Shown: piece by piece, positions 38,747-40,732 of the stretch
Layout of the letters: every line of letters starts with the position of its first letter
Position numbering within the stretch: position 1 is the first letter of the stretch
Origin: Candidatus Caldarchaeum subterraneum
Lineage (GTDB): Archaea; Thermoproteota; Nitrososphaeria_A; Caldarchaeales; Caldarchaeaceae
Direction of reading: 5' to 3'
Length of the DNA: 64,000 nt
Assembly: GCA_937934305.1 (NCBI GenBank)
Contig: CALHAG010000014.1
Span: 1 to 64,000, forward strand
Made by a program: the position numbers and the translations under genes
Notes under the pieces: generated by a model
Databases searched by the model: none
The model's input: the letters and a program-made list of their open reading frames with translations, nothing else
Told to the model about the DNA's origin: nothing

Positions 38747-39010
38747 GTGAAGGTTTTCCTGCGGCTTGAGTCCGAGATTCCGCCCACCCTTACCAAGTAT
38801 GGCAAGATTAGGCTGCCTCCCGCGGTCATTCCGCTCTTGGCGGGTAAAGGTAAGACGATACAAGTCACCTATGGCGGGGACAAGCATTCTCTTAAGCTGG
38901 ACCGTTATGGCCGCGCCACGCTTCCCTCAAGCATAGCGGCTGAAAGCCGTGGCAAGGCTAAACTGGTCATCGAGATGAAAGACGGAGAGGTTACGCTCGT
39001 TTTTCAATAG
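38747..39010 (+). CDS. Small protein with two AbrB/SpoVT-like half-sites
   Basis: TKYGKIRLPPAVIPLLAGKGKTIQV and DRYGRATLPSSIAAESRGKAKLVIE. Confidence 0.45.
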   Translation: MKVFLRLESEIPPTLTKYGKIRLPPAVIPLLAGKGKTIQVTYGGDKHSLKLDRYGRATLPSSIAAESRGKAKLVIEMKDGEVTLVFQ

Positions 39011-40688
39011 GCGGATGATGCGCCTGCACGTATTGCTTTGAGCTTATCTTCGGTGAGTTTCTCGAATAGGGGGATTGGCTTGGCTATGGATGCTCCCGCT
39101 GGCAGGTGCCATGGTTTTTCACCGAGCCATGTTACAGCTTCTTCTCCCTGGCCTATCATCTCAAGTATTCTATGCGTGGTCGCGGGGGTGAACGGGGCCA
39201 AAAGCAGGGCCAGCGCCTTCAAGACCTGTGCAGCCACATGAAGAACCGTCGCGGCCTCATCTTTCCTCGTCTTGACAAGCCGCCATGGCTCCCGTCTGTT
39301 GAAGTAGACGTTTCCTTCGCGGGCGAGTTGTATAACTGTCTCGAGAGCCTGTTTCTCTCTCGCCTCTGAGAGAAGGTTGTCCACTTCTGTGAATGTCTTC
39401 TCTATAGCAGCCAGCATCGCCTTGTCTTCTTCTGTTAAATGTGTTGCTTCGGGGATTTTTGCGTCGAAGTTGTTGTTTATGAAGGTGAGGACGCGGTGGA
39501 TGAAGTTGCCGAGGTCGTTGTTGAGGTCCGAGTTAACAACCGCCATGAGCCCGTCGTAGCTGAAGTTTGTGTCACCTGTCTCGGGCCTTATCTTGACTAG
39601 ATAGTATCGCCAGACATCTGCTTCGAGCATGGCGATGGCTTGGTCGAGCCATATCCCCACGCCGAGGCTTTTGGAGAATTTTTTGCCCTCGAAGGTGAGA
39701 TATTCTGTGGCTGAGACTATGTAGGGAAGTATGTAGGGCTCGTGTGTTGCGAGAAGTAGGGCGGGGAGAATGACTGTGTGGAAGGGTATGTTGTCTTTGC
39801 CGATGAAGTAGGCTGACTTCGTGTCTGGGCTTAGCCAAAACTCTCTCCAGAGCTCGGGTTCACCTTTTTTCTCCGCCCATTCAACGGTTGCGCTCGGGTA
39901 GCCGAGAACCGCCTCAAACCACACGTAGATGGTTTTGTTGCCCGCGCCCGGGAAAGGCGCAGGTATGCCCCAGAGGTTGTCACGTGTAACAGCCCTTGGC
40001 TTAAGCCCCTCCCTAATCCAGCTGAGGCTGAAGTTCCGCACTTTCTCGGACAACGTGGTGCTCGTGGTCAGCCATGTTCTCAGCCTATCGCTAAACTGTG
40101 GCAAGTCAAAGAACCAGTGCCTGCTCGATTCTACGACGGGTTTTTCGCCGCATATGCTGCACCGTGGCTCGAGTAGGTCCAGTGGGTCGAGGACTTTGCC
40201 GCATGCCTCGCACTGGTCGCCGCGGGCACGTTGGTAGCCGCATGAGGGGCAGACACCTGTCACAAACCTGTCGGGTAGAAATCTTCCACAGTTTTTGCAG
40301 TAGAGCTGGTTGACGTCCTGCTCGTAGATGTAGCCGTTTTCGTAGATTTTCATGAAGAAGTTTTGGCAGAAGGTGATGTGTGTTGGGTTGTGTGTTCGGG
40401 TGTAGTTGTCGAAGGAGAGGTGAAACTTGTTGAAGAGCTCGACAACTAGGGCGTGGTTTTTGTCGGTTATCTCACGTGGGTCGACGCCTCTCTTGGCCGC
40501 CTCAACCTCGATGGGTGTGCCATGCTCATCCGAGCCGCTGACAAAGACAACTCTATGGCCCTTGGCCCGGAGGTAGCGTGCGAAGACGTCTGCTGAAAGC
40601 TCGGAGCCTATGAGTGTGCCGAGATGAGGAACGGTGTTTATGTAGGGCCATGCACCGCAGACAACCCACTTCTCTAGTTTAGCTCACC
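39004..40688 (-). CDS. metG: Methionyl-tRNA synthetase; the 5' end needs a frameshift or non-canonical start
   Basis: Same frame upstream of the tracked ATG (40353) encodes LEKWVVCGAWPYINTVPHLGTLIGSELSADVFARYLRAKGHRVVFVSGSDEHGTPIE; KFSKS present. GTGAGC at 40688 joins this frame only after removing one T. Confidence 0.9.
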
Positions 40689-40732
40689 CGCCGAAACAAA
40701 GCCAGCAACCTATGTAAAAAGTTTTCCACAAA

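Follow-up and report, generated by a model that had tools for sequence, protein, structure and literature searches.

A probable CUA or CUC start codon behind a Shine-Dalgarno sequence in methionyl-tRNA synthetase genes of Caldarchaeia

Bacterial infC, which encodes initiation factor IF3, begins with AUU in E. coli and with ATC in Streptomyces, a weak start that serves control (as cited in PMC5472188). In the Streptomyces gene sigR, the annotated GTG lay in the ribosome-binding site (RBS), and the real start, GTC, is located just behind it; this start was demonstrated by mutation and Western blot and is confined to Streptomyces (PMC5472188). An archaeal case of a different kind is the alpha-fucosidase gene of Sulfolobus, which carries a programmed frameshift at a slippery site inside the gene (PMC8211752).

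The gene that we compare with these systems is metG, coding for methionyl-tRNA synthetase (MetRS), in a window of 64,000 nucleotides (the whole stretch of DNA that was analyzed) from Candidatus Caldarchaeum subterraneum. Like infC, metG is an essential translation gene with what appears to be a conserved non-canonical start behind a Shine-Dalgarno (SD) sequence. Unlike infC, it is archaeal, its codon is CUA or CUC, and its product is not itself the start-codon discriminator, a property that gives infC direct feedback. As with sigR, a GTG inside the RBS was mistaken for a start, and the putative non-canonical codon, also conserved, lies just 3' of it. However, sigR is a different gene, and its GTC, which is backed by mutation and Western blot, is not a leucine codon, as the proposed metG codon is. 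Like the Sulfolobus alpha-fucosidase gene, metG is an archaeal gene that seems defective when canonical rules are applied, but its frame is intact from the CTA onward, and there is no shared slip site.

A literature search for a CUC, CTC, CUA or CTA start codon by name found no paper, subscription papers being mostly outside its scope, and no relevant work came up when MetRS was searched together with autoregulation at the start codon or together with Bathyarchaeota. If the reading presented here is true, conserved CUA and CUC starts on an essential gene across archaeal classes extend the natural set of start codons, and archaea gain a counterpart of the infC control of bacteria. Such genes are either reported as broken by standard gene callers or shortened; metG in the window loses 109 residues in this way, among them the catalytic N-terminus. 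A weak start on the very enzyme that charges the initiator tRNA would also be a directly testable link.

The features of the locus are collected in Table 1. As the initial annotation had observed, metG has no usable in-frame start where one is expected: between an in-frame TGA (40686-40684) and ATG 40353 lie 110 codons without ATG, GTG or TTG, and this ATG, the first canonical start codon in the frame, gives an ORF of 449 amino acids. Because the TGA is in frame, a start 5' of it is excluded. The same annotation had placed a conserved N-terminus upstream of the ATG, and profile searches bear this out. Read from the CTA, the product scores 550.1 bits against TIGR00398 (cut-off, 336.35) and 589.2 bits against NF001100 (cut-off, 587); its residues 6-541 correspond to positions 3-529 of the 530 in TIGR00398, and its alignment with Pyrococcus MetRS (1rqg) begins at residue 3. 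Judged by these matches, the protein encoded 5' of ATG 40353 is real MetRS, with the N-terminal Rossmann part included. No second metG was found in the window's genome (1.56 Mb in 30 contigs), in which the next matches are 32-33% identical and represent other ORFs of class I synthetase type.

Table 1. Features at the metG locus, with positions counted along the window
Feature	Coordinates	Strand	Basis or remark
metG, methionyl-tRNA synthetase	39004..40677	-	557 codons from CTA; matches to TIGR00398 and NF001100
Proposed metG start codon CTA (non-canonical)	40675..40677	-	39/39 Caldarchaeia metG have CTA or CTC here
SD GGTGA, inside GGGTGAG (40683-40689)	40684..40688	-	Complementary to the 16S 3' end of the same genome
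In-frame TGA, three codons 5' of CTA	40684..40686	-	Sequence; identical TGA in 20 scored Caldarchaeia genes
TATA-like box TTTTTACATA, about 27 nt 5' of the SD	40711..40720	-	Sequence; spacing across relatives

The start region of metG in the window is CGGGTGAGCTAAACTAGAGAAGTGG. Nine bases 3' of the TGA, and in the metG frame, is CTA 40677-40675, from which the frame reads CTA GAG AAG TGG, or (M)EKW. The 16S rRNA of the window's genome ends in GGATCACCTCCT, and thus contains an anti-SD with which GGTGA pairs perfectly; the SD is short, having a core of 5 nt, which is a point against the start proposed here, and its aligned spacing to the CTA is 7 nt. GTG 40687-40685 falls inside this SD. The string GTG AGC TAA, to which attention had been drawn earlier, is present as written, but its GTG belongs to the SD and is very probably not a start. 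The CTA lies two codons 5' of the Lys or Arg that precedes the conserved Trp, and this start position is precisely where ATG, GTG or TTG is found in many other archaea. We conclude from these comparisons that metG is very probably intact and that its translation begins at CUA, a conserved non-canonical start codon for which sister families have CUC. Non-canonical initiation was one option raised in the initial annotation and agrees with the comparative evidence, although the in-frame CTA at ideal SD spacing was not named there.

This arrangement recurs throughout the Caldarchaeia. Among 44 genomes searched, 39 metG genes were found, and each has an SD followed after 6-8 nt by CTA (20 genes) or CTC (19 genes), with CTC instead of CTA in sister families. 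An automatic criterion scored 37 of the 39 (20 CTA, 17 CTC); the remaining two have CTC. In the scored genes, the aligned SD spacing is 7 nt in 24, 8 nt in 7 and 6 nt in 6. The interval from the upstream in-frame stop to the CTN is without any canonical codon in 26 of the 37, a frequency of missing starts that is far beyond chance. In several genes the upstream stop is merely two codons 5' of the codon in question (TAA GCC CTA or TAG ACC CTA). The layout is shared by a finished relative, G003, whose genome is a single contig of 1,680,938 bp.

Under the mechanism that we propose, the SD (GGUGA) would position the 30S subunit with CUA in the P site. Initiator Met-tRNA would be accepted there with only the middle U able to pair with its CAU anticodon, and the first residue would be Met. 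That CUA and CUC are very poor starts in bacteria counts against this mechanism. Initiation at these codons would be inefficient, so that the stringency of aIF1 would set the amount of MetRS. In Sulfolobus, aIF1 reportedly promotes discrimination against start codons that are not canonical (PMC6237735), and it is a candidate for the start-codon discriminating factor in translational control of metG. Low, aIF1-gated or methionine-sensitive synthesis of MetRS may be the reason for the conservation.

Outside the Caldarchaeia, most sampled metG genes of Bathyarchaeia have GGAGGTG-N7/8-CTC, and the remaining ones have TTA, ACG, TTG, GTG or ATG at the start. In one of the Bathyarchaeia genes (L177, genome G140), which reads GTT TAG TCG GGT AAG, an in-frame TAG abuts TCG at the start position; this TCG may be an even stranger start, or else reflect a local error. 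Thermofilales metG genes have CTA or CTC, plus an in-frame GTG inside the SD. Over 148 distinct metG loci, the start position holds CTC in 44, CTA in 5, CTG in 3 and CTT in none, these being raw counts that include shared ancestry. At the Leu/Ile of the HLG motif in the same CTN genes, by contrast, codons are mixed (TTA 12, CTA 11, TTG 7, CTC 6, CTG 2, Ile 14). The restriction at the start position thus points to conservation of the codon, and not merely of leucine. In five Lokiarchaeia genes (L063, L064, L067, L071 and L075), the codon at SD spacing is TTA, in contrast to the TTG of related Lokiarchaeia, and two Sulfolobales-like genes have ACG at the start position; these TTA and ACG starts are in more doubt, as an in-frame TTG or GTG is present near the SD.

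The set of codons bears on another possibility, that initiation at CUA and CUC uses leucine, carried by an elongator Leu-tRNA or a special initiator, and not Met-tRNAi. Nearly all of the unusual metG starts are leucine codons (CUA, CUC, CUG, UUA), and initiation with Leu at CUG is known in eukaryotes. However, ACG is also found at the start position (L066, L069, L194 and L198), aIF2 selects Met-tRNAi, and decoding by Leu needs no restriction of the third base to A or C. We therefore consider leucine initiation unlikely, and return to initiation with methionine at CUA and CUC.

A second gene with the same arrangement emerged when the finished relative was scanned for coding signal 5' of the first canonical start (1.60 of 1.68 Mb; 1,220 genes), which produced a short list that included metG and the threonine synthase gene, thrC. 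In 29 Caldarchaeia species (L350-L378), thrC has an SD followed by CTA in 26, CTC in 2 and CTG in 1, with a spacing of 7 nt in 21, 6 nt in 6 and 8 nt in 1. The CTA and the first conserved Cys, in comparison, are separated by 3 to 10 codons. Because the SD spacing is fixed while the N-terminus slides, the CTA behaves as a start codon, and not as a conserved residue would. In one gene (L373), TGA is directly 5' of the CTA. In Bathyarchaeia, most thrC genes represent other paralogs, whose starts are canonical, and two Caldarchaeia-like copies in this group carry CTC, their SD including an in-frame GTG. Taken together, metG and thrC suggest that a start signal has been conserved which is weak by design and which gene finders overlook.

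Where transcription begins matters for this reading. A crude scan centres TATA-like boxes 25-30 nt 5' of the SD for metG (20 of 38 genes) and 26-29 nt 5' of it for thrC (18 of 27 genes). Given the established TATA-to-start distance that is usual in archaea, we infer that metG and thrC mRNAs begin at or next to the SD, which would leave a leader of about 12-14 nt. The main weak point of the CUA-start reading lies here, in that a transcript 5' end a few bases further 3' would remove the SD.

A predicted 5' end near GTG 40687 also makes leaderless initiation at this GTG conceivable, and the window does read GTG AGC TAA. The initial annotation had offered a programmed +1 frameshift. In this reading, GTG 40687 is the start, and the ribosome, after decoding GUG AGC, passes over one base at the UAA and so enters the metG frame. 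The relatives make such a shift very unlikely. Depending on the species, GGTG is 6, 7 or 8 nt 5' of the CTN, so that translation begun at GTG would have to shift by 0, +1 or +2. Stops close the GTG frame at differing points (GTG TAA in L012; GTG CGT TAA in L027 and L038), or the frame remains open, and the GTG of Bathyarchaeia is the end of GGAGGTG. No slip site, such as described archaeal frameshifts have (PMC8211752), is common to the relatives.

Repair at the RNA level, in which editing, modification or splicing makes a canonical metG start in the mRNA, has a precedent in the introns that exist in archaeal protein genes. We nevertheless regard it as highly improbable, because the short leader fits no intron-sized insert, C-to-U editing of CUA or CUC does not produce a canonical start, and the fixed SD spacing is left unexplained. 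The idea of a sequencing or assembly error, with an extra T in an ordinary GTG-started metG, can be practically dismissed, as a single-base change would yield GTG AGC AAA in the window alone, but the comparison with related strains that had been recommended as a check finds the same layout in 38 other Caldarchaeia genomes, the finished one included, and in independently assembled Bathyarchaeia.

Initiation at CUA or CUC thus being the preferred reading, its history and possible role can be considered. The Caldarchaeia (CALDARCHAEIA) hold two very different types of MetRS, one with an AWPYIN kind of N-terminus and the other with the ALPYSYAPRHFGHL kind; in a phylogenetic tree, the branch between them measures 1.26 changes per site (SH-aLRT, 100). 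Only this type-separating branch of the tree was used, and its automatic start labels are rough (for example, L013, L065 and L148). A CTA or CTC start is present in both types, and was therefore kept or regained across gene replacement. MetRS charges the initiator tRNA, and the thrC enzyme competes with methionine synthesis for O-phosphohomoserine, the branch-point intermediate. Since both genes touch methionine, this suggests, without proving it, a response to the supply of methionine or of initiator tRNA; that the pair responds in this way is speculative and, in our estimation, doubtful. A broader hypothesis, which we put forward tentatively and do not favor, is a start-codon control circuit of Caldarchaeia and Bathyarchaeia. 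In such a circuit, the CUA and CUC codons of metG and thrC would sense initiation stringency or the supply of initiator Met-tRNA and would have been kept despite replacement of metG by a distant type, possibly through a special mode of initiation at leucine codons.

A genome-wide habit of odd starts was considered for the finished relative and rejected. Where an SD measures at least 5-6 nt, the codons that follow it are predominantly ATG, TTG and GTG, and an overall enrichment of CTA or CTC behind SDs was not found in this genome. Besides metG and thrC, no long gene with a convincing SD and CTA or CTC start was found among the 1,220 scanned. As controls, aRF1 and a synthetase of class I (query from G000:C27) were compared in the same genomes, and their starts are mostly canonical. 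The sua5/TsaC gene has ACG in G003 and ATG in the window's genome, and its ACG is thus an isolated change.

Some further observations concern individual genes. In six Calditenuaceae genomes of one genus (L220-L225), aRF1 is an exception in that it has no canonical start near the conserved N-terminus. Its start by alignment is ATA, in GAGAATGGA ATA GCN AAR TGG, so that aRF1 joins metG as a translation gene whose start is odd, the codon being different from that of metG. In G003, coding signal also precedes the first canonical start of 861105+ (aroE-like), 377548- (permease-like), 224425- (transporter-like), 701843+ (purB) and 1003897+ (LeuA/CimA-like), for which CTG, ATA or ATC starts are possible. 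Near 424446- (aIF5B), the same genome reads HVDHGKCVAPWT..., as if an intein were positioned directly after the GTPase P-loop.
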